This document shows, one piece after another, positions 1-24,249 of a stretch of DNA of 64,000 nucleotides. Each line of letters begins with the position of its first letter. Position 1 is the stretch's first letter. The translations under genes and the position numbers were made by a program. The stretch is from Olleya sp. Hel_I_94 (GTDB taxonomy: Bacteria; Bacteroidota; Bacteroidia; Flavobacteriales; Flavobacteriaceae): contig NZ_VISI01000002.1 in the NCBI RefSeq assembly GCF_007827365.1, positions 935,001 through 999,000 on the forward strand. The letters are read 5' to 3'. The notes under the pieces were generated by a model, which was not told the DNA's origin, did not search any database, and was given only the letters and a program-made list of their open reading frames with translations.

Positions 1-2318
1 GGTCTTAATTGTCTGTGGTCGCCAACAAGGATTAATTTTTGGGCTAAAACTGTTGGTATTAATGCTTCTGCTGTGGTTGCTTTTCCACTTTCGTCCATTA
101 TTACATAGTCAAATTCAAAATTATATTTTTGATATTTTTTTGATGCGATATGATTAGTTGTTGCACCAATTACTCTAATGCTATCTATTAATTTTTGGTT
201 TATATTACTATTTTCATCTAACGAACTAATTGTTGCTAACCAATCTTTAAATATTTGTTGAATAATCAAATTTTCGTTTTTAAGTTCTTTCTTAAATTCA
301 GACTTATATAAATTCCAATTTGATTTCGCTTTTTTCTTAACCTCAGTTTTCCAACCCTCAATTTTTCTGTCTAAAGTATGTTTTTGCAAACTTACTTTTG
401 GTTTTCTAATACCACTTAATCGAACAATTGGAATCTCTTTTTCCAATAGATTATCTAACACGTTATCAACTGCATCATTTGTTTGAGAAGTGATTAAAAT
501 TTTAGCATCAGGATTTTTATTTAATATTTGAAATACTATTTCTGTTATAACAGTTGTTTTTCCTGTTCCTGGTGGACCTTGAATAATTGTTAAAGGTTCT
601 CTATTAATTGCATTTAGTATTGCTTTTTGTTGATTAAAACTATATACAAAGTCATTACCTTTTTCGTCTGTTTGATAAACATTTGTTAGTTCTTGAAATT
701 CAAGATTTTTGCCCTGCAAGTCAGTAGGATTAAAAACGTAATGTATTAAATCTCTATTTTGAACTTCATTATATTCTACTTTTCGTATTGCTTCTAATTG
801 TCTTTTCTTTTCCTCTTCTTGTTTACTGATATTTTCAAATATGTAACCATTTTTGGGGATTTTTTCAAAATCTAATCCTTCACAATCCTTAAATTTTAGA
901 ATTCTTGTTTTTGTATTGAAATCATAAGCAACTCCCGAAAATTCCATTGGGTCTTTCATTTGTTTTTTATCGGCAGTTTCACTTACGATAAATTCAAAAT
1001 CTTCTGGGTTTGGTGGCGTTGCCTTGTCAATGTGAGAGAAGATTAAGCCGTTCTTGCTGTATTTCTCATTGTCTTGAATTTTAAATGAAATTTCATAATT
1101 TCCTTTTTTCTCAAAACCTACATAACGTAACCTTAATGAGTTTTTTTCTAAAACTTGCATTTCTCTGGTTAGTAAGTCTTTAAAGAATTTTAATTCTTTA
1201 GTAATTTCTTTTTTTCCTTTTCTATACTCGCTCTCGTGTTGTTTTTCTTTTTGTATTTTTTTTAAAAATGGCGTTAGGTTATGATAATCAATTTGGTGGT
1301 ATTGAGAAGTAAAAGTTAATGGAACATTAAACTTCTTTCCATATTTTGAAACTCGTGAATATTTGTTTTCATCTTCTATCTTGTTACAGAAATTACGAAT
1401 TGTTAATTCATTTTCATCTATTATCCATAAACAATGCGCGATAAAAGAATTAGTAATTATATCAAGAAGAATAATGTTTTCATTTTTAGAATTACTCCAA
1501 ACTTCAATTTTATTGTTATTGTCATTTAACTCATTAATTAGTTGTTCATTATTTTCTCCTGAAGTATAGATGTAGTAATCGGAATTAAATAAATTATTTT
1601 GAGTGATTTTAATAAGATCTTCAATAAATTGAATATAATTAAGTCGCTCATTAGGTTGTTTTTCGCAAGATTTATCTATTAACTGTTTAATTTCTTCAAA
1701 TTCGTTGATATCATTTTTTGCAAAATACCATTCAATAACTTTACCAATAGAATAAATGTCAGATTGATAGGAAAATCCCTTTGGGATTTTTCTATCCCAT
1801 TTTTCAGGTGACGCAAATTCTTTTGCGAAAATTTCTAGTTCTTGTGATTGACTTAATGTTGCAGAAATATCTGAAATTCCAAAATCAATTAAGTAAAAAT
1901 CAAAGTTTTCATCTACAAGTATATTTGCTGGTGTTATATCTCCGTGAGTTAGTTTATGTTTTTGTTGCAATTGCTGTAAACAATTTGCAATTTGTTCAAT
2001 TCCTTTTAAAAAATGCGTTGGTTTGATTTCAAAAACATTTTCCTCTAAAGAAGTTGCGTTTTTGTTTTCAAATATGATGCAATAAGCACTTTGGATTTCG
2101 TCCCATTCATATTCAATAATTTTCGGAAGAGAAGAGTGGGCTGCTTTTTTTAAGTGTCGTAATTTATTGTTAAGAATTTTACTCGGTTGTGAATTTTTAT
2201 CAATTCCTTTAATCCATTTGATAAAATAAATTTCTCCACTTTCATCTGTTACTTTGGCGGTTGATGAATAACCTCTGTTTTGGATTTCTCCATATAGTTG
2301 GTATTTGTCTAAAATCAT
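1..2318 (-). CDS. Protein kinase fused to superfamily 1 (UPF1/DNA2-like) helicase, partial at left edge
   Basis: The reading frame is open for 772 codons from ATG at 2318 to the window edge, so the C-terminus is missing. The first about 250 residues form a Ser/Thr protein kinase-like domain: the catalytic loop reads HGDITPANILVD, followed by LIDFG in the DFG position. A linker of about 350 residues resembles the N-terminal part of UPF1-like helicases. The helicase core then shows Walker A (QGPPGTGKTT), motif Ia (TSQTNDAVDN), Walker B (VIMDESGKAT) and motif III (LVGDHRQL), and stops before motifs IV-VI. Its start is 14 bp after the stop of the DUF4258-like gene, so the two are probably cotranscribed. 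Kinase-helicase fusions of this kind are usually accessory genes; a role in phage defence or DNA stress is inferred only from architecture and the nearby CRISPR locus. Domain calls are secure, function is not. Confidence 0.88.
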   Translation of the reverse strand, partial: MILDKYQLYGEIQNRGYSSTAKVTDESGEIYFIKWIKGIDKNSQPSKILNNKLRHLKKAAHSSLPKIIEYEWDEIQSAYCIIFENKNATSLEENVFEIKPTHFLKGIEQIANCLQQLQQKHKLTHGDITPANILVDENFDFYLIDFGISDISATLSQSQELEIFAKEFASPEKWDRKIPKGFSYQSDIYSIGKVIEWYFAKNDINEFEEIKQLIDKSCEKQPNERLNYIQFIEDLIKITQNNLFNSDYYIYTSGENNEQLINELNDNNNKIEVWSNSKNENIILLDIITNSFIAHCLWIIDENELTIRNFCNKIEDENKYSRVSKYGKKFNVPLTFTSQYHQIDYHNLTPFLKKIQKEKQHESEYRKGKKEITKELKFFKDLLTREMQVLEKNSLRLRYVGFEKKGNYEISFKIQDNEKYSKNGLIFSHIDKATPPNPEDFEFIVSETADKKQMKDPMEFSGVAYDFNTKTRILKFKDCEGLDFEKIPKNGYIFENISKQEEEKKRQLEAIRKVEYNEVQNRDLIHYVFNPTDLQGKNLEFQELTNVYQTDEKGNDFVYSFNQQKAILNAINREPLTIIQGPPGTGKTTVITEIVFQILNKNPDAKILITSQTNDAVDNVLDNLLEKEIPIVRLSGIRKPKVSLQKHTLDRKIEGWKTEVKKKAKSNWNLYKSEFKKELKNENLIIQQIFKDWLATISSLDENSNINQKLIDSIRVIGATTNHIASKKYQKYNFEFDYVIMDESGKATTAEALIPTVLAQKLILVGDHRQLR

Positions 2319-2332
2319 TGTTTTATTTTTAT

Positions 2333-2620
2333 TTAACAGTTAATCCCTGTATCTCCAAACTTAGCAAAAGCTGTTATTAATATATTTTGTCTAGTCACTA
2401 CTGTTAAACTTGTCAAACCAAGACAATCTCTAGCTAACAGATATCCTTGTTCTATGGCTTGCATAATTCTTTCTTTATGAAGCACATACTCTACTTTGTT
2501 TCTCGCCATTGTTTTCATATCTCCTTTAATAAGACACATAGAAACTAGAAAAGGATCTATTTGTCGCTGTGTTAAGCGCTGTTGAAAATGAGGGCTTTGT
2601 TTATAATTTAGTATTTTCAT
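2333..2620 (-). CDS. DUF4258-like small protein
   Basis: The protein has 95 residues if it starts at ATG 2620 (MKILNYK). A longer reading from 2650 would begin inside a perfect hairpin (2638-2660), so I reject it. The N-terminal pattern SPHFQQRLTQRQID, with the His and two Gln-Arg pairs, matches the DUF4258 pattern (H...R...RgI). Proteins of that family are small, often sit in mobile or toxin-antitoxin-like neighbourhoods and have no established activity. The gene lies 14 bp upstream of the kinase-helicase and downstream of a 46-residue gene with an almost identical leader. It may be a regulator or partner of the kinase-helicase. The family call is tentative; the gene itself is well supported. 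Confidence 0.7.
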   Translation of the reverse strand: MKILNYKQSPHFQQRLTQRQIDPFLVSMCLIKGDMKTMARNKVEYVLHKERIMQAIEQGYLLARDCLGLTSLTVVTRQNILITAFAKFGDTGINC

Positions 2621-2637
2621 GATTTTTGGTTTTAATC

Positions 2638-2660
2638 TCATCCTTAACAAAAGGATGAGA
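2638..2660 (-). promoter_or_regulatory. Hairpin between the 46-residue gene and the DUF4258-like gene
   Basis: CTCATCC and GGATGAG form a perfect 7-bp stem with a 9-nt loop, 11 nt after the stop of the 46-residue gene and 17 nt before the next start. No T-run follows, so it is a weak terminator at best. It could be an attenuator or a stabilising 3' end. Confidence 0.5.
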
Positions 2661-2671
2661 TTTGGTTAGTT

Positions 2672-2812
2672 TTACTTCTTAGAATTTTGATTTGGGTTTA
2701 ACTGTTTTCCTCTGTTACCATGCACTTTACTATAAGCCTTGTTACTTCCAGATGTTCCTTTGTTTGAATTTGCTTGATTTGATTTGTGATTGTTTTGTTT
2801 TGAATTACTCAT
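2672..2812 (-). CDS. Small Asn/Ser/Lys-rich hypothetical protein (46 aa)
   Basis: The frame runs from ATG 2812 to TAA 2672-2674 and begins MSNSKQNNHKSNQANSNK. It is rich in Asn, Ser, Lys, Gln and Gly, has no hydrophobic segment and looks intrinsically disordered and basic. Its leader (ATTAAAACCAAAAATTATG) is nearly identical to that of the following DUF4258-like gene (ATTAAAACCAAAAATCATG), which supports it as a genuine expressed gene. It is the first gene of the leftward group that ends in the kinase-helicase. Small proteins of similar composition occur in flavobacteria, but I know no function. Confidence 0.6.
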   Translation of the reverse strand: MSNSKQNNHKSNQANSNKGTSGSNKAYSKVHGNRGKQLNPNQNSKK

Positions 2813-2926
2813 AATTTTTGGTTTTAATTAGATTTATAAAAGCTCAGCACCTTGCTAAACCCTTGTTATTACTGTAAATATCTAGATGTTTACAATTAAA
2901 TTTTCTAATTTGTGACAGACCAACTA

Positions 2927-2959
2927 TATTTGGGATATTGACCTACTTATTTGGGATAT
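2927..2959 (+). promoter_or_regulatory. Direct repeat upstream of the LytTR two-component operon
   Basis: The 12-mer TATTTGGGATAT occurs twice, at 2927-2938 and 2948-2959, exactly 21 bp apart (two helical turns) and 31 bp before the kinase start codon. LytTR regulators such as AgrA and AlgR bind direct repeats with this spacing. Autoregulation by the regulator encoded at 4040 is inferred. Confidence 0.5.
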
Positions 2960-2989: not shown

Positions 2990-4039
2990 ATGAATCGCTA
3001 TTCAGTACTTTATAATCAATACGCATTAACCGAGCAAATAGAATTACTAAGAAGCGCATTTTTAATATTACTATGCGTATTAATTTTAGTTATAATAAGA
3101 AATTGGTACAATCTTTATAAGAAGCGTTCTTTTAGAAAAAACAATAGATTATTAAAAGAAAAACTAGATGCTCAGCAATTAAACATCTCGAAATTTGATC
3201 AACAACTCAGAAAAACAGAATCTTTAGAAAGAAAACTGAATAAAAAGGTTACTGAAATTTTTCAGTTAGAAAAAGAAATGGAAGATTACAAGCAAAAATT
3301 CTATTCTTATTTAAGTGAAAAAGAAAAAGAGATAGCACAACATAAAGAAACAAATAACTATCAAAAAAGAGCTTATGAGCGTTTTGTCGACTATAAAAAC
3401 GTTGAAGCTAACAATACACGACTTGGTGCTCATTTTATTAAAAATGTAATTAGCCAGATTTACAAAGACATTGAGGAAACAGACAATAGCTACAAATCCT
3501 TTTTAGGTATAAATTATAAAAGAGGTGAGAAAAAAAGTAAAGTACCACCAATAAAAGCACTAAAAAATATTTTTAAATTATTAGATTATAATGTGTCGGC
3601 TTTAAATAAAGAACACACTACCCTTGAAGAAGAACTGGCACATATTAATATGTTTTTAGATCTTATTAAATACCTTAAACCAAATACCAATATCAATTTT
3701 AGTAACAAGTTAAACTCAGAACAAAATAGTAGTATCAAGATTAAACCAACGCTTTTCTTTCCGTTTGTTGAGAACGCTTTAAAACATGGCGCCTTAAATA
3801 ATGTAGATTCGTTTATTAGTATTATTTTAAAAGAAAATGACGACAAACAATTAAGTTATTGCTTGGTTAATAGTGCAGAACAACGCTTAGATTATGACAG
3901 TAAAGTTTCTCAATCTTCTAACTTTGGTTTGAATGCTTTACAGCAGTTACTTAATGCCTATTATCCAAAAAGCAAATTGGAACATAAAACATTACCAAAC
4001 AATCAATATTTATCTGAATTAACCTTAAGCTTAAACTAA
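2990..4039 (+). CDS. LytS/YesM-type sensor histidine kinase
   Basis: The protein has 349 residues. One membrane segment lies at about 21-37 (FLILLCVLILVIIRNW), followed by a long coiled coil at about 50-130, then the His_kinase phosphoacceptor region with AHFIKN at 146-151 (H148 is the likely phosphorylated His). The HATPase N-box reads FVENALKHGALN. There is no extracellular sensor domain, so the input is probably sensed through the membrane or coiled coil, or comes from a partner. The stop codon directly abuts the ATG of the LytTR regulator, indicating translational coupling. The H-box differs from the common PHFLFN (AHFIKN here) but keeps His, Phe and Asn. Signal and target genes are unknown. 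Confidence 0.88.
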   Translation: MNRYSVLYNQYALTEQIELLRSAFLILLCVLILVIIRNWYNLYKKRSFRKNNRLLKEKLDAQQLNISKFDQQLRKTESLERKLNKKVTEIFQLEKEMEDYKQKFYSYLSEKEKEIAQHKETNNYQKRAYERFVDYKNVEANNTRLGAHFIKNVISQIYKDIEETDNSYKSFLGINYKRGEKKSKVPPIKALKNIFKLLDYNVSALNKEHTTLEEELAHINMFLDLIKYLKPNTNINFSNKLNSEQNSSIKIKPTLFFPFVENALKHGALNNVDSFISIILKENDDKQLSYCLVNSAEQRLDYDSKVSQSSNFGLNALQQLLNAYYPKSKLEHKTLPNNQYLSELTLSLN

Positions 4040-4795
4040 ATGATACGATATATATTGGTTGATGATGATCCTAATACTTTAAAAGGTGTTAAAACTAAAA
4101 TTGATAATCTATCAAAAGATTATGAGTTAAAACATATAGCAAGTTATGACAGCTCTAAAAAGGCTTATCAAAATATAAATGAAGACGACTTTGATTTACT
4201 TATTGTAGATTTTGACATGCCTGTTTATAATGGTATAGAATTAGCTCAAAAAATTGCGACAAACAAAAAAATAATATTTTTAACCTCAACAACTAATAAT
4301 GAGAAACAAATCATAAATAGTTTAGATATTTCTGGATACTTAAGCAAACCTTTTGAGGTTGAAGAATTTGAGGTCATCCTTAAAAATAAGGTGATTGGAA
4401 AAGTAAGCAGTAAAAAAACATTTAAAAAAGGTGAGAGATTAACACTCGCAATTGGAGTTAATCAGGATATTGGTTTTTACCCTGATAAAACATACTACAT
4501 TTCCACATCACGAAACATAAAAAAATATCAGTCTAATAAAAACTGTGTCCATTTTTTTGGAGCTCAAGATGATGTCATTGTAACTAATGTTAGAATTAGC
4601 ATTAACGACCTATCGAAAAAATTAGAACCTTATGGTTTTGAAAAAATTAATCAAAGCACTATTGTTAATCTATCTAAAATTGATAATAGAAATAACAAAA
4701 AAATTGAGTTATTGGATTGTGAAGAAACACTTTTCATTGGAGACAAGGAAAAAAAAGGAATCGTATATAAAATACGATCTATATTTGGTATTTAA
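4040..4795 (+). CDS. LytTR-family response regulator
   Basis: The protein has 251 residues. An N-terminal receiver domain shows the acidic pocket VDDD (8-10), phosphoacceptor D57 in IVDFDMP, conserved T in FLTSTT and K in LSKPF. The C-terminal half (about 140-250) fits a LytTR DNA-binding domain, including the pattern YGFEKINQSTIVNLSKI, typical of the region where such domains read F..ihrS.lVNl.kI. It begins at the base after the kinase stop codon and is clearly its cognate regulator. The 21-bp-spaced direct repeat at 2927-2959 is a candidate binding site. Confidence 0.92.
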   Translation: MIRYILVDDDPNTLKGVKTKIDNLSKDYELKHIASYDSSKKAYQNINEDDFDLLIVDFDMPVYNGIELAQKIATNKKIIFLTSTTNNEKQIINSLDISGYLSKPFEVEEFEVILKNKVIGKVSSKKTFKKGERLTLAIGVNQDIGFYPDKTYYISTSRNIKKYQSNKNCVHFFGAQDDVIVTNVRISINDLSKKLEPYGFEKINQSTIVNLSKIDNRNNKKIELLDCEETLFIGDKEKKGIVYKIRSIFGI

Positions 4796-5284: not shown

Positions 5285-8200
5285 ATGAGAAAAATATTAG
5301 GATTGGATTTAGGTACTACATCAATCGGTTGGGCTTTAGTAAATGAAGCTGAAAATGAAAGTGAAAATTCAGAAATCATTAAACTTGGAGTTAGAGTTAA
5401 TCCGCTTTCTATTGATGAAAAAACAAACTTTGATAAAGGAAAACCAATTTCTACAAATGCAGATAGAACCCTAAACAGAGGTGCTAGAAGAAACTTACAA
5501 CGTTATAAACAAAGACGTGAAAACTTATTTGAGGTATTATTAAAAAATAAAATAATCGAGAAAGAAACAGTTTTAACGGAGACAGGATATAACACGACTC
5601 ATGAAACTTTAAGATTAAGAGCTAAAGCACCTAACCAACAAATAGAATTAAAAGAATTAGCAAGGGTGTTATTTTCAATTAACAAAAAAAGAGGTTATAA
5701 AAGTAGTAGAAAATCAAAAAGCGAAGATGAGGGAAATGCTATTGATGGTATGTCAATTGCTAAAGAATTATATGAAAATAAAATTACACCTGGACAATAT
5801 GTATATCAACAACTTTTAAATAAAAAAAAATATATTCCTGATTTTTATCGCTCTGATTTACAGAATGAATTTAATACAATCTGGGATTTTCAAAAACAGT
5901 TTTATCCTAATATTTTAAATGATGAAATGTACAAGAAACTTGAAGGACAAGGACAACAAAGCTCTAGGAAGAGATTTCTTGCTATTCATGGTATTTATAC
6001 CGCTGAGAACAAAGGAAAAAGAGATGCCATCAAATTACAACATTATAAATGGAGATCAGAAGCAACAACTAATCAATTACCAATAGATCAGGTTTCTTAT
6101 GTTTTAGTGGAGATAAATAATGATTTAAATAAATCTAGTGGATACCTTGGTGCTATAAGCGACAGAAGTAAAGAATTATATTTTAAAAAGGAAACTGTTG
6201 GCCAAAATCTATACAGGCAAATAAAAGAGAACAATCATATTTCTTTAAGGAATCAAGTTTTTTATAGACAAGATTATTTAGATGAATTTGAACAAATTTG
6301 GGAAGAACAAGCTAAATATTACTCAGAATTAACTTCAGAATTAAAAAATGAAATTCGTGATGTCGTAATTTTTTATCAACGAAAATTAAAATCTCAAAAA
6401 CATCTTATTTCTGATTGTCAATTTGAAAAACGACATAAAGCTATTCCTAAATCTTCTCCATTATTTCAAGAGTTCAAAATTTGGCAAAATTTAAATAATT
6501 TAGAATTTAAAAACACAAAAACAAAAGAAAAAATTGTTTTAGATGAAGACTTAAGAATTTCTCTTTTTGAAGAATTAAATTTGAGAGGAAATCTAACAGA
6601 AAAAGACATATTAAAATTTTGTGATTTAGACACCACTTGGAAGAGCAATTTTACAACAGGACTAGAAGGCAATAATACAAACAAGGCATTATATAACATT
6701 TACCAATATATCGCTACAGAAGAAGGCTATGGTTTTGATTGGGAAAAGAAAAATGCAAAAGAAATACAAGAAGAGTTAAAATCCATTTTACCTCAAATAA
6801 ATATTGATGCTACTATTTTAAATTTTGACGCCAATTTAGAAGGCCAAACATTTGACAAACAAACCAGTTATCAATTATGGCACTTACTATACTCAGCTGA
6901 AGATGACACAAAAATATTAGAGAAAGACAGATTAATTTATGGAAACTCAAATGTAGCTCTAAAAAAGAAACTTCATACTAAATATGGTTTTAAACCAGAA
7001 TATGCTGCCATGATAGCTAATATTTCTTTACAAGAAGATTACGGTAGTTTGTCCTCTAGAGCTATTCGTAAAATTATTCCTTTTTTACAAGAAGGTAATG
7101 ACTATTCAGAGTCTTGTGCATTAGCAGGATACAACCATTCTAGTAGCCTAACCAAAGAAGAATTAGAAAAAAGAATTTTAAAACCAAAATTAGAAATACT
7201 ACATAAAAACAGTTTAAGAAACCCAGTTGTAGAGAAAATTTTAAATCAAATGGTAAATGTAGTAAATCAAATTATTGATGAATACGGAAAGCCTGATGAA
7301 ATAAGAATTGAACTAGCTAGAGATTTAAAAAAATCTGCAAAAGAAAGAGAAGAAACTACAAAATTTATAAACTCTGCAACCAAAGTAAACGACGACATAA
7401 AATTTTTAATTAAAAAAGAATTTGGGTTTACTCCCACTAAAAATGATTTAGTACGATATAAGCTGTGGCTTGAACTTAAAAACAATGGACATAAGAGCTT
7501 ATTTACAAACAAATACATTCCAAAAGAAAATATCTTTTCAAAAGACATAGATATTGAACATATTATACCAAAAGCTATTTTATTTGACGATTCCTTTTCC
7601 AACAAAACACTTGCCTACAGAGCTGTTAATCTAAAAAAAGCAGATAGAACAGCTTTAGATTTTATAGAACAAGAATATAATAATGAAGAAATTAATAATT
7701 ATAAATTAAGGGTAGAAAATTTATATAAAAATGGAGATATAAGCAAAGGAAAATACAGGAAGCTTTTAATGAGCATCGCTAATTTACCAACAGATTTTAT
7801 TGCGCGAGATTTAGTTAACACCCAGTATATTTCTAAAAAAGCAAAAAGTATGCTATTTGAAGTGTTTCAAAATGTAGTTCCAACATCTGGTAGAATTACA
7901 GATAAATTACGTGGTGACTGGGATTTAATAAACGTAATGAAAGAGCTTAATTTACCTAAATATAGAAGTTTAGGACTAACAGAAATTCAAGAAAGAAAAG
8001 GTAATAAAAAAATTGAGGTGATAAAAGATTGGACAAAAAGGAATGACCATAGGCATCATGCAATGGACGCACTTACAGTTGCTTTTACTACACATAATCA
8101 TATTAACTACATTAATAATCTTAATGCATCTAGAAGCAAAGAAAGTGTATTGTATGCCATTAAAAATACTATTACTAAAATTTACGAAGATCCAATTGGA

Positions 8201-9379
8201 AATAAAAAGAGAAAATTTATACCTCCAATGGTTAATTTTAGGGTTGAAGCTAAAAAGCATATAGAGTCTGTTTTAATTTCGTATAAAAATAAAAACAAGG
8301 TTGTAACTAAAAACGTTAATAAATCTAAGTTAAAAGGTAAAGATAATTTCAATATCAAATCACAGCTTACACCTAGAGGGCAACTACATAAAGAAACAGT
8401 ATATGGCACCTCTAAAAGAGAAATGGAAAAACCAATAAAACTGAATAAAAGCTTTAACCTAGACACTTTAAATCTAATTATTAACCATAACTTAAAAACT
8501 CTTGTAGCAAAGCATTTACATAAATATAATAATAACCCAAAAATTGCTTTTGACTCTAAAACAATAAAAAAAGACCCTATTCTTTATAACGATTTACCGT
8601 TAACAGAAGTTTTTTGTTTCGAAAAAATCTATACTATTCGTAAAGTTGTTTCACCAGACAATTTTAAAACGGAAAAAGATTTAAATAAAATAGTGGATAA
8701 AAAAACACGAGAAATATTAAAGTTTAGACTAGCAGAATATGGAGCAAATCCAAAAGAAGCTTTTGCTGATTTGGACAAAAATCCCATCTGGTTAAATAAA
8801 GAAAGAGGAATTACTATTAAAAAAGTCACTATAACAGGTGTTGCTAATGCAGAACCTTTACATTATAAAAAAGATCATTTTGGAAATGAAATGTTAGATG
8901 AAAATGGTAATAAACAAGCTGTAGATTTTGTAAGTACAGGGAATAACCATCATGTCGCAATTTATAAAGATAACAAAGGTAAATTACACGAAAAAGTGGT
9001 ATCGTTTTATGAGGCTGTCGCTAGAGTAAATCAAGGGTTACCTATAATTGATAAAGAATACAATACAAGTTTAGGCTGGGAATTCTTGTTTACTATGAAA
9101 CAAAACGAAATGTTTGTGTTTCCAAGTGATGATTTAAATTTAGATGAAATAGATCTACTAGATAAGAAAAACTACACTTTAGTAAGTCCATATTTATTTA
9201 GAGTCCAAAAATTAACTACTAAAGATTATTTTTTTAGACATCATCTAGAAACAACTATTCAAGATAATAAAGAATTAAAAGGAATATCTTTTATTAGAAC
9301 TGGCTTAAATAATATAGAGAATATAATAAAAATAAGAACTAATCATCTAGGAATGATTGTTCAAATAGGAGAATTTTAA
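5285..9379 (+). CDS. cas9: CRISPR-associated endonuclease Cas9, type II-C
   Basis: The RNA-guided DNA nuclease has 1364 residues, normal for Bacteroidota II-C enzymes. RuvC-I reads LGLDLGTTSIGWA with D8. The Arg-rich bridge helix follows at about 61-80 (RTLNRGARRNLQRYKQRREN). RuvC-II IRIELARDL supplies E676, the HNH domain IDIEHIIP supplies H759 with N782, and RuvC-III DHRHHAMDAL supplies H925 and D928, so every catalytic residue is present. The remaining about 430 residues include the PAM-interacting region. The order tracrRNA, cas9, cas1, cas2, array with no csn2 or cas4 defines subtype II-C. A palindrome at 5217-5232 precedes it. The stop is 3 bp before cas1. Nothing looks truncated. Confidence 0.98.
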   Translation: MRKILGLDLGTTSIGWALVNEAENESENSEIIKLGVRVNPLSIDEKTNFDKGKPISTNADRTLNRGARRNLQRYKQRRENLFEVLLKNKIIEKETVLTETGYNTTHETLRLRAKAPNQQIELKELARVLFSINKKRGYKSSRKSKSEDEGNAIDGMSIAKELYENKITPGQYVYQQLLNKKKYIPDFYRSDLQNEFNTIWDFQKQFYPNILNDEMYKKLEGQGQQSSRKRFLAIHGIYTAENKGKRDAIKLQHYKWRSEATTNQLPIDQVSYVLVEINNDLNKSSGYLGAISDRSKELYFKKETVGQNLYRQIKENNHISLRNQVFYRQDYLDEFEQIWEEQAKYYSELTSELKNEIRDVVIFYQRKLKSQKHLISDCQFEKRHKAIPKSSPLFQEFKIWQNLNNLEFKNTKTKEKIVLDEDLRISLFEELNLRGNLTEKDILKFCDLDTTWKSNFTTGLEGNNTNKALYNIYQYIATEEGYGFDWEKKNAKEIQEELKSILPQINIDATILNFDANLEGQTFDKQTSYQLWHLLYSAEDDTKILEKDRLIYGNSNVALKKKLHTKYGFKPEYAAMIANISLQEDYGSLSSRAIRKIIPFLQEGNDYSESCALAGYNHSSSLTKEELEKRILKPKLEILHKNSLRNPVVEKILNQMVNVVNQIIDEYGKPDEIRIELARDLKKSAKEREETTKFINSATKVNDDIKFLIKKEFGFTPTKNDLVRYKLWLELKNNGHKSLFTNKYIPKENIFSKDIDIEHIIPKAILFDDSFSNKTLAYRAVNLKKADRTALDFIEQEYNNEEINNYKLRVENLYKNGDISKGKYRKLLMSIANLPTDFIARDLVNTQYISKKAKSMLFEVFQNVVPTSGRITDKLRGDWDLINVMKELNLPKYRSLGLTEIQERKGNKKIEVIKDWTKRNDHRHHAMDALTVAFTTHNHINYINNLNASRSKESVLYAIKNTITKIYEDPIGNKKRKFIPPMVNFRVEAKKHIESVLISYKNKNKVVTKNVNKSKLKGKDNFNIKSQLTPRGQLHKETVYGTSKREMEKPIKLNKSFNLDTLNLIINHNLKTLVAKHLHKYNNNPKIAFDSKTIKKDPILYNDLPLTEVFCFEKIYTIRKVVSPDNFKTEKDLNKIVDKKTREILKFRLAEYGANPKEAFADLDKNPIWLNKERGITIKKVTITGVANAEPLHYKKDHFGNEMLDENGNKQAVDFVSTGNNHHVAIYKDNKGKLHEKVVSFYEAVARVNQGLPIIDKEYNTSLGWEFLFTMKQNEMFVFPSDDLNLDEIDLLDKKNYTLVSPYLFRVQKLTTKDYFFRHHLETTIQDNKELKGISFIRTGLNNIENIIKIRTNHLGMIVQIGEF

Positions 9380-9382
9380 AAG

Positions 9383-10611
<1,229 letters not shown>

Positions 10612-10683: not shown

Positions 10684-10721
10684 AATCCCAACCTATTGAG
10701 TTTACTCAACAAATTGGGATT
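10684..10721 (-). terminator. Terminator at the cas2-proximal end of the CRISPR array
   Basis: Outer arms AATCCCAA (10684-10691) and TTGGGATT (10714-10721) enclose an inner TTGAGT/ACTCAA stem. On the minus strand the hairpin is followed by ACTTTTTAG, as in an intrinsic terminator. It sits 3 bp beyond the first repeat, where a minus-strand crRNA transcript would end. The plus strand has no T-run after it. Confidence 0.7.
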
Positions 10722-10724
10722 GAC

Positions 10725-12290
10725 CTTGTGATTGCTCACGTAAAAATACAATTTGAAACCAATTCACAACTGTTTTTCAATCATTAATTCAGATAAGTCA
10801 CTTGTGATTGCTCACGTAAAAATACAATTTGAAACCAATTCACAACACCCATTCGCCTGAACCATCTTTTTTAGTTCTTGTGATTGCTCACGTAAAAATA
10901 CAATTTGAAACCAATTCACAACATAAGTTGCATTATGGTATAAATGGTATTGCTTGTGATTGCTCACGTAAAAATACAATTTGAAACCAATTCACAACTA
11001 TTCTATTGAAAGCCCTATTGATTTAAAGCTTGTGATTGCTCACGTAAAAATACAATTTGAAACCAATTCACAACATCGTTGTAGAAGATAACGTGTTAAC
11101 AGACCTTGTGATTGCTCACGTAAAAATACAATTTGAAACCAATTCACAACTATCAGACAATAATACTGATTCAATAGTAACTTGTGATTGCTCACGTAAA
11201 AATACAATTTGAAACCAATTCACAACTGACTTGTTGACGTACTGCTTTTCGTGCTTCTTGTGATTGCTCACGTAAAAATACAATTTGAAACCAATTCACA
11301 ACAAGTTGCACCTGTTTGGTCCTTAATGTATTCTTGTGATTGCTCACGTAAAAATACAATTTGAAACCAATTCACAACTATTTAACAGTTTTGGCTTCTT
11401 TAAACAGACTTGTGATTGCTCACGTAAAAATACAATTTGAAACCAATTCACAACTATAGTGATTTTATAATCTTTATTGCTATCCTTGTGATTGCTCACG
11501 TAAAAATACAATTTGAAACCAATTCACAACTGTATCTTCTTTTGATACCCATTGTTTATTCTTGTGATTGCTCACGTAAAAATACAATTTGAAACCAATT
11601 CACAACTAGTTTAATTGAAACGTACTAACAAATGCTCTTGTGATTGCTCACGTAAAAATACAATTTGAAACCAATTCACAACATCATGTTACCACTAAAA
11701 GCAAATAGGTTGCTTGTGATTGCTCACGTAAAAATACAATTTGAAACCAATTCACAACACATATGTAGAGCGTAAAAGCGGTGTTAATCTTGTGATTGCT
11801 CACGTAAAAATACAATTTGAAACCAATTCACAACACATCTGACTTTGCACTTTAACCAATTTATCTTGTGATTGCTCACGTAAAAATACAATTTGAAACC
11901 AATTCACAACTAACGATCTGTTAAGTCATTATGGATATGACTTGTGATTGCTCACGTAAAAATACAATTTGAAACCAATTCACAACAGACGATACCAGAT
12001 ATATATTTTTGTTCATCTTGTGATTGCTCGCGTAAAAATACAATTTGAAACCAATTCACAACGTATTTATACTTTTTTACCCATTTAGCCATCTTGTGAT
12101 TGCTCACGTAAAAATACAATTTGAAACCAATTCACAACAATGCGTTTTACACTATGTTAAAAATATATCTTGTGATTGCTCACGTAAAAATACAATTTGA
12201 AACCAATTCACAACTATATACCAAGAAAGGACAGTAGCTTATTTCTTGTGATTGCTCACATAATAATACAATTTAAAACCTATTTCTAGT
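10725..12290 (-). CRISPR. Type II-C CRISPR array, 21 repeats of 46 bp and 20 spacers of 30 bp
   Basis: Repeats start every 76 bp from 10725 to 12245 without a single deviation. On the plus strand each begins CTTGTGATTGCTCACG and ends ACCAATTCACAAC; on the minus strand it therefore begins GTTGTGAATTGGTTTC, the usual type II orientation. The repeat at 12017 has one A-to-G change and the last one (12245-12290) has nine changes, seven of them within the first 16 bases of the minus-strand reading. All spacers are exactly 30 bp and all differ. Pairing with the tracrRNA, an in-repeat TTG-N18-TATTTTTA promoter-like pattern and a terminator at the left end all favour minus-strand transcription. Spacer targets could not be searched. 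Confidence 0.98.
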
Positions 12291-23475: not shown

Positions 23476-24249
23476 ATGAATTATATATCTAAAAACATAA
23501 AACATTTAAGAAATCTCAAAAAGCTATCTCAAGAGGGAATTGCCGAAGAGTTAAATGTTACCAGATCGCGAATTGGCTCTTACGAAGAGAACCGATCTGC
23601 ACCTACATTAGAGTTTTTAATTGCGTTTTCAGATTACTTTAAAATACCCATAGATATTTTACTGCGCAACGACTTAACTAAAGCTAAAGATTTCTCTTTT
23701 ATAGAGTTAAATAATCAACGCGTCCTATTTCCAATTACTGTTGATGATGATAATGAAAATTTAATTGAAGTCGTGCCTGTTAAAGCTTCGGCTGGATATT
23801 TAGCAGGTTATGACGATCCTGAATATATTGAGCAACTTCAAAAAATAAAACTGCCTTTTCTTCCTACAGGAAAACATCGTGCATTTCCTATAAAAGGAGA
23901 CTCGATGTTACCAATGAAGGATGGCTCGTTTGTTATTGGTCGTTTTGTAGAAAATAGAAGCGAAATTAAAAGTGGCAGAACCTATGTTTTAGTTACTTTA
24001 AATGACGGTATGGTTTATAAACGTGTGTATAATAATATTGATTTAAACAACTCATTATTACTAATATCAGACAATAAAACCTATAATGACTATAGTGTAC
24101 CAATTAATGAAGTATTAGAAATTTGGGAATTTACATGCAGTATTAATACACAAGAATACACACAAGAAGAGTTAAAAATTAGCAGTATTCTAGGTATGTT
24201 TAACGAGTTAGGTGTCGAATTAAAAGCTTTAGAGAAGTCTATAAAATGA
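23476..24249 (+). CDS. LexA-like repressor: HTH_XRE plus S24 self-cleaving peptidase domain
   Basis: The protein has 257 residues. An XRE helix-turn-helix spans about 5-62 (LSQEGIAEELNVTRSRIGSY). A LexA/S24 domain follows at about 100-220: an Ala-Gly scissile pair at 106-107 (KASAGYLAGY), nucleophile S143 in KGDSMLPM and K182 in GMVYKRVY. The fold resembles phage CI-type repressors more than E. coli LexA. It diverges from the polymerase operon over a 52-bp gap containing an inverted repeat, and its last four bases overlap the start of the DnaQ-GIY-YIG gene. It probably represses both operons and self-cleaves upon RecA filament formation. Confidence 0.9.
   Translation: MNYISKNIKHLRNLKKLSQEGIAEELNVTRSRIGSYEENRSAPTLEFLIAFSDYFKIPIDILLRNDLTKAKDFSFIELNNQRVLFPITVDDDNENLIEVVPVKASAGYLAGYDDPEYIEQLQKIKLPFLPTGKHRAFPIKGDSMLPMKDGSFVIGRFVENRSEIKSGRTYVLVTLNDGMVYKRVYNNIDLNNSLLLISDNKTYNDYSVPINEVLEIWEFTCSINTQEYTQEELKISSILGMFNELGVELKALEKSIK

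Follow-up and report, generated by a model that had tools for sequence, protein, structure and literature searches.

A Mokosh type I operon with an unusual front end beside a divergent histidine kinase-LytTR pair in Olleya sp. Hel_I_94

Gene content of the locus

A 64,000-nucleotide stretch of the genome of Olleya sp. Hel_I_94 (the window, G000:C2:935001-999000 within the 3.56-Mb genome) opens inside a leftward operon that is a known Mokosh system, a pair of anti-phage defence genes termed MkoA and MkoB, with an unusual front end (Table 1). An earlier note, made from the window sequence, had described three genes here, and all of them were found on the minus strand, the gene for a 46-amino-acid (aa) protein first, then a DUF4258-like gene and then a kinase-helicase fusion, together with the 14-bp gap between the last two and the common leader of the small genes. 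The two small genes are separated by 51 bp. The sequence left of the window, which that note had recommended obtaining, completed the helicase to 1047 aa and revealed a fourth gene, MkoB, which lies outside the window and was thus absent from the note; its start codon overlaps the MkoA stop by one base. The leader TTAAAACCAAAAAT[C/T]ATG is identical ahead of both small genes. The genome holds three exact copies, two of them at the operon, and five with at most one mismatch, and the reversed-pattern control gave none; given this low copy number and the empty control, the sharing of the leader exceeds chance. A general flavobacterial signal was ruled out on the same count of exact copies.

Table 1. 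Coordinates of the operon, its regulatory region and associated features (window positions unless a genome or locus is named)
Feature	Location	Strand	Remarks
MkoA, Ser/Thr kinase-SF1 UPF1-like helicase fusion	1..2318	-	5' 772 codons in window
Complete MkoA gene	G000:C2:934175-937318		1047 aa; rest left of window
MkoB, PLD-type, 450 aa	G000:C2:932823-934175		wholly left of window, downstream of MkoA
DUF4258-like protein, predicted BECR/RelE-BrnT fold	2333..2620	-	95 aa, ATG start
12-bp perfect hairpin between 46-aa and DUF4258 genes	2634..2662	-	RNAfold -16.5 kcal/mol
46-aa basic N/S/K-rich small protein, first operon gene	2672..2812	-
Leader copy TTAAAACCAAAAATCATG ahead of DUF4258 gene	2618..2635	-
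Leader copy TTAAAACCAAAAATTATG ahead of 46-aa gene	2810..2827	-
Three direct repeats CMCAAAT, candidate LytTR operator	2908..2955	-	start-to-start 21 and 20 bp
Histidine-kinase-like protein, divergent to operon	2990..4039	+
Response regulator with LytTR DNA-binding domain	4040..4795	+
START-domain gene, tyrosine-recombinase-like integrase, 251-aa protein, zinc-ribbon protein	L003:12256-15494 (G000:C2:929256-932494)		flank cargo
213-221-aa protein genes	L059:8867-9508 and L060:8981-9646	-	each directly after 46-aa gene
Type II CRISPR-Cas: Cas9 (1364 aa), Cas1, Cas2	5285-10611		by reading; directly right of LytTR regulator
CRISPR repeat array, about 20 units of 76 bp	about 10714-12290

The Mokosh pair

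By its gene content, the kinase-helicase and PLD pair is established as Mokosh type I at the level of sequence. MkoA matched the PADLOC MkoA profile at 7.9e-146 (486 bits), with residues 2-1034 aligned to positions 7-1097 of 1112. The earlier description of a kinase and a UPF1-like helicase in one frame held, with Pfam matches above the cut-offs for Pkinase (51.0 bits against 31.7, residues 17-204) and, in a helicase of the COG1112/UPF1 kind, for AAA_11 (135.9 bits) and AAA_12 (114.3 bits). MkoB matched its PADLOC profile at 3.3e-31 (107 bits) and Pfam PLDc_2 at 19.6 bits, under the cut-off of 27, and its C-terminal THRKLIIKDDDYYIQGSFNF (HRK-x4-D ... GSFN) was read by eye as one copy of what we take to be the HKD motif. 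Passages of PMC11672841 assign to Mokosh type I a helicase and a PLD nuclease that are encoded separately, plus a Ser/Thr kinase domain, and the pair agrees with this in its kinase-SF1 helicase fusion, the PLD-type gene immediately following and the full-length MkoA match. It differs in having two extra genes in front (46-aa and DUF4258), a divergent kinase-LytTR pair with repeats, and, among the best 25 of 35 Pfam rows for MkoA, no NERD domain, which a table in PMC10952713 gives for Mokosh type I. The passages available from the Mokosh literature mention no accessory gene.

Searching 397 genomes of the family with the MkoA profile gave 30 loci (L007-L036), 29 of them not the window's own. The number of genomes with a match (232 of 397) was rejected as a frequency of Mokosh, as 13 of 14 controls matched too and the count therefore reflects generic kinase and helicase domains. 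Of the 29 loci, two contain close relatives of both genes, in genomes G075 (92-94% DNA identity) and G029 (79-81%), with ratios of nonsynonymous to synonymous substitution rates (dN/dS) against G075 of 0.24 for MkoA and 0.15 for MkoB. These two pairs are homologous to the window's from the MkoA start codon onwards, up to points 21 and 47 nt short of the MkoB stop codon, and the 19 kb surrounding them yielded neither small gene. Both relatives carry a 61-residue stretch without counterpart in the window's MkoA; the gap is in frame around KNENLIIQQIFKDW, between the Walker A motif and MDESGKA. In plasmids, MkoB gave no match at 1e-10 and MkoA at 1e-40 gave one partial match, in Aliarcobacter (43% covered, 36% identity); protein P0001 had no match in viral contigs.

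The 46-aa gene and its neighbours

The 46-aa protein matched no known family, and relatives were found in four of 148 other genomes (G109, G033, G091 and G045), with a dN/dS of 0.07 against G109 over 43 codons. In G109 and G033 its same-strand neighbour is a prokaryotic viperin (PADLOC pVip, 6e-95 and 2.1e-81). In G091 and G045 that place is taken by a 213-221-aa protein (57% mutual identity) that has no PADLOC match and is a candidate defence cargo. The arrangement in G109 is that of the window, with viperin and the 46-aa gene running leftwards and a histidine kinase and LytTR regulator rightwards; in G033 the order is kinase, LytTR regulator, viperin and, last, the 46-aa gene. The hairpin after the 46-aa gene recurs in G109 (-15.2 kcal/mol) and G033 (-17.1 kcal/mol), and none was found in G091 (G045 was not folded). 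According to the portion of PMC10865869 available, prokaryotic viperin loci can have adjacent HicA or RelE toxin genes, and the present loci share with them the combination of a known antiviral effector and a small gene for a putative RNase-type toxin. They differ in that viperin in G109 and G033 has the 46-aa protein, without a match to any toxin family, as its small partner, and that in the window the toxin-like gene accompanies Mokosh.

The divergent kinase-LytTR pair and the repeats

The earlier note had missed the divergent genes for the histidine kinase and the LytTR regulator, which are probably part of the picture. The kinase shares 62% identity with its positional counterpart in G109 and scores 19.3 bits for Pfam His_kinase, below the cut-off of 25.2; the regulator scores above cut-off for both Response_reg (62.5 bits) and LytTR (25.2 bits) and is 66% identical over 128 aa to its G109 counterpart, a copy cut at the contig end. 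The G109 intergenic region has the same three CMCAAAT sites at the same 21/20-bp spacing. With a dN/dS of 0.18 and a dS of 1.8 between the kinase genes, the conserved spacing does not merely reflect recency. The three-repeat pattern has a single match in the genome even when two mismatches are allowed, and the control gave none. Three sites were reached in one of 20,000 first-order Markov sequences for each locus, a shuffle test that alone is weak support, the motif having been chosen after the fact; the argument is carried instead by the identical G109 spacing and the single genome match. Of six further histidine-kinase matches (7.5e-13 to 8.4e-16), the five besides G033 were dropped as ordinary LytTR pairs because their neighbours within 1.5 kb look unrelated to defence. 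Divergence, repeats and spacing together suggest that the pair may control the cargo. A literature search returned no paper joining viperin, LytTR and phage, or LytTR, anti-phage and two-component.

The DUF4258-like gene

The DUF4258 label of the earlier note stands in part: the Pfam match (PF14076) exists, at 18.9 bits in the window and 19.7 bits at locus L045, both under the cut-off of 25. The note's suggestion of a toxin has only a fold resemblance in its favor. The BECR-fold signal for the model came from a second look with VIA-align only; Foldseek with the model gave nothing below E 0.46, a PDB sequence search with the profile gave none at E<=10, and plasmids, phages and viral contigs contained no match to the protein. 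Relatives occur in one of 396 other genomes of the family, and not in a genome with a 46-aa relative; no other genome with all three genes of the earlier note was found, and by the refuting condition that the note itself had set the idea of one conserved unit fails. In a wider search of genome contigs the single protein found nothing and a two-sequence alignment found two loci. A weak DUF4258-like match in L018 (E 0.063) overlaps a longer open reading frame on the opposite strand and was not counted.

In all three loci the neighbour of the DUF4258 gene is a helicase gene. The other two are five-gene operons (L045:7992-15261 and L038:9376-16515) in the order DUF4258, MkoA-like helicase, 352-356-aa protein, PLD protein and RtcR-type CARF activator, the last identified at L045 by PADLOC and in G010 by reading, with the DUF4258 gene first, the same place as in the window. 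Their neighbours, by reading, are restriction-modification-like genes at L045 and a Wadjet-like set at L038, and a four-gene form is annotated on Vibrio and Pontibrevibacter plasmids (L048-L050). The Mokosh pair alone might be the system, with the DUF4258 gene a leftover first gene of a replaced operon of this kind and without a Mokosh role, a possibility to which we give real if lesser weight. It would fit the start of homology at the MkoA start codon and the lack of both small genes around the pairs of G075 and G029, and it would equally explain why the boundary falls so exactly. Against it stand the open frame, the 14-bp spacing and a dN/dS of 0.21 against L045, a sign of selection for protein sequence, although the ratio is mostly set by the time preceding the join to Mokosh; in addition, no remnant of the other four operon genes was detected nearby (tblastn, E 0.1, L003 and the window), the helicase matches being MkoA itself.

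In the portion of PMC11980606 available, DUF4258 is listed as a toxin family of the RelE/ParE superfamily with antitoxin-first gene order, and its section 18 states that little is known about DUF4258 toxins. As the 46-aa gene comes first, the two small proteins could form a toxin-antitoxin pair lying by chance before Mokosh. This is disfavoured and very improbable: DUF4258 gave no match in the four other genomes that carry a 46-aa relative, the 16-19 kb on either side of the two other DUF4258 genes held nothing for the 46-aa profile (best E 1.3), and the 46-aa protein lacks any family match. The locus resembles such type II modules in its weak profile match and similar predicted fold and differs in having no recognisable antitoxin gene and a helicase as neighbour. 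A further parallel comes from passages of PMC11090510, by which BrnT-like RelE toxins stand before RtcR-linked operons of CoCoNuT, a type IV restriction system, and CnuH helicases carry a RelE-like RTL domain. Common to both is a small gene, here with a predicted BECR fold, directly upstream of, and in the same direction as, a UPF1-like helicase system, and L045 and G010 have the RtcR-CARF gene as well. The sequence is DUF4258-like rather than BrnT, and the helicase that follows it in the window is a kinase-fused Mokosh one without RtcR. A scan of the operon's four proteins, not of other flanking genes, showed no McrB-like GTPase among the matches listed (best 25 of 26 for PADLOC and 25 of 35 for Pfam with MkoA).

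A possible exchangeable defence slot

The START-domain gene and the three genes listed with it precede the cargo in the window genome, G109 and G091, with identities of 80-86% (START), 47-71% (integrase), 22-34% (247-251-aa protein) and 40-57% (zinc ribbon); the integrase-like gene scores 25.7 bits, just under the Pfam cut-off of 27.1. G029 has its Mokosh pair at a distance of about 3.5 kb from this START gene (79-84%) and lacks the integrase there. In G033 and G045 the 46-aa gene is outside this slot. By its recurrence the START/integrase region is a defence hotspot, and in view of three genomes Mokosh may be cargo in an exchangeable slot. Ordinary cellular functions, too, make use of UPF1-like helicases and LytTR systems, which would suit a chromosomal RNA or DNA stress-response module in place of defence. 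We regard this as very improbable, as both genes match Mokosh, the slot adjoins an integrase-like gene and CRISPR-Cas, and viperin is the alternative cargo; a DNA-stress housekeeping role found no support, and the defence module proposed in the earlier note was borne out by the Mokosh type I match, by the adjoining CRISPR-Cas9 locus and integrase-like gene and, in the relative G029, by a type I restriction-modification set identified by reading.

Proposed working and its weight

The explanation that we favor, and consider fairly probable, is a Mokosh type I operon that occupies, as exchangeable cargo, a defence slot of flavobacteria. The sequences show which genes and families are present, where the cassette begins and ends, that the repeat spacing is conserved and that the cargo is swapped; how the operon may be regulated, how it may target RNA, where the DUF4258 gene may come from and what each protein may do are inferred. 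The divergent kinase and LytTR regulator would act on the three repeats before the 46-aa gene and set cargo transcription, and the hairpin would limit read-through so that more of the small protein than of the cargo is made. During infection MkoA, its UPF1-like helicase gated by the kinase domain, might find phage RNA or RNA/DNA structures and license MkoB to cut nucleic acid; degradation of viral transcripts by Mokosh is reported in the available part of PMC11291487. The DUF4258 protein, with its predicted RelE/BrnT-type RNase fold, could work alongside MkoA, either as a further effector directed at RNA or as an adaptor that reads the ribosome, its gene perhaps borrowed from the helicase-PLD-RtcR operon. 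That it contributes to Mokosh is the weakest step. Several observations weigh against the slot idea: of the four viperins found, two lack a 46-aa gene within 1.5 kb, the G033 kinase pair shows no special closeness, a kinase of this kind is missing at two of the five 46-aa loci, and the full arrangement is present in only one genome besides the window's.

More tentatively, and in our view rather unlikely in full, the locus could be a plug-in slot under two-component control, with a constant part (kinase, LytTR regulator, three-repeat operator and 46-aa protein) and an effector that is swapped between Mokosh type I and viperin, perhaps also the 213-221-aa protein, the cargo here having gained a BECR-fold RNase-like third subunit that recurs directly before MkoA-family helicases. 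If so, Mokosh would here be a three-part RNA-attacking system and anti-phage defence would be switched on by a sensor kinase, with the kinase-LytTR pair and repeat array before interchangeable cargo giving a direct handle on the defence-activating signal. The small gene with the predicted BECR fold, since it recurs, offers a candidate partner of MkoA-family helicases that can be tested. The 46-aa gene and repeats may mark the slot for finding further antiviral genes, such as that of the 213-221-aa protein.

Other observations

By reading, the Mokosh pair of G029 adjoins type I restriction-modification genes. Downstream of MkoB (L005, about 500-720) a broken stretch resembles, by eye, part of the S24-type repressor that 23476-24249 of the window encodes.
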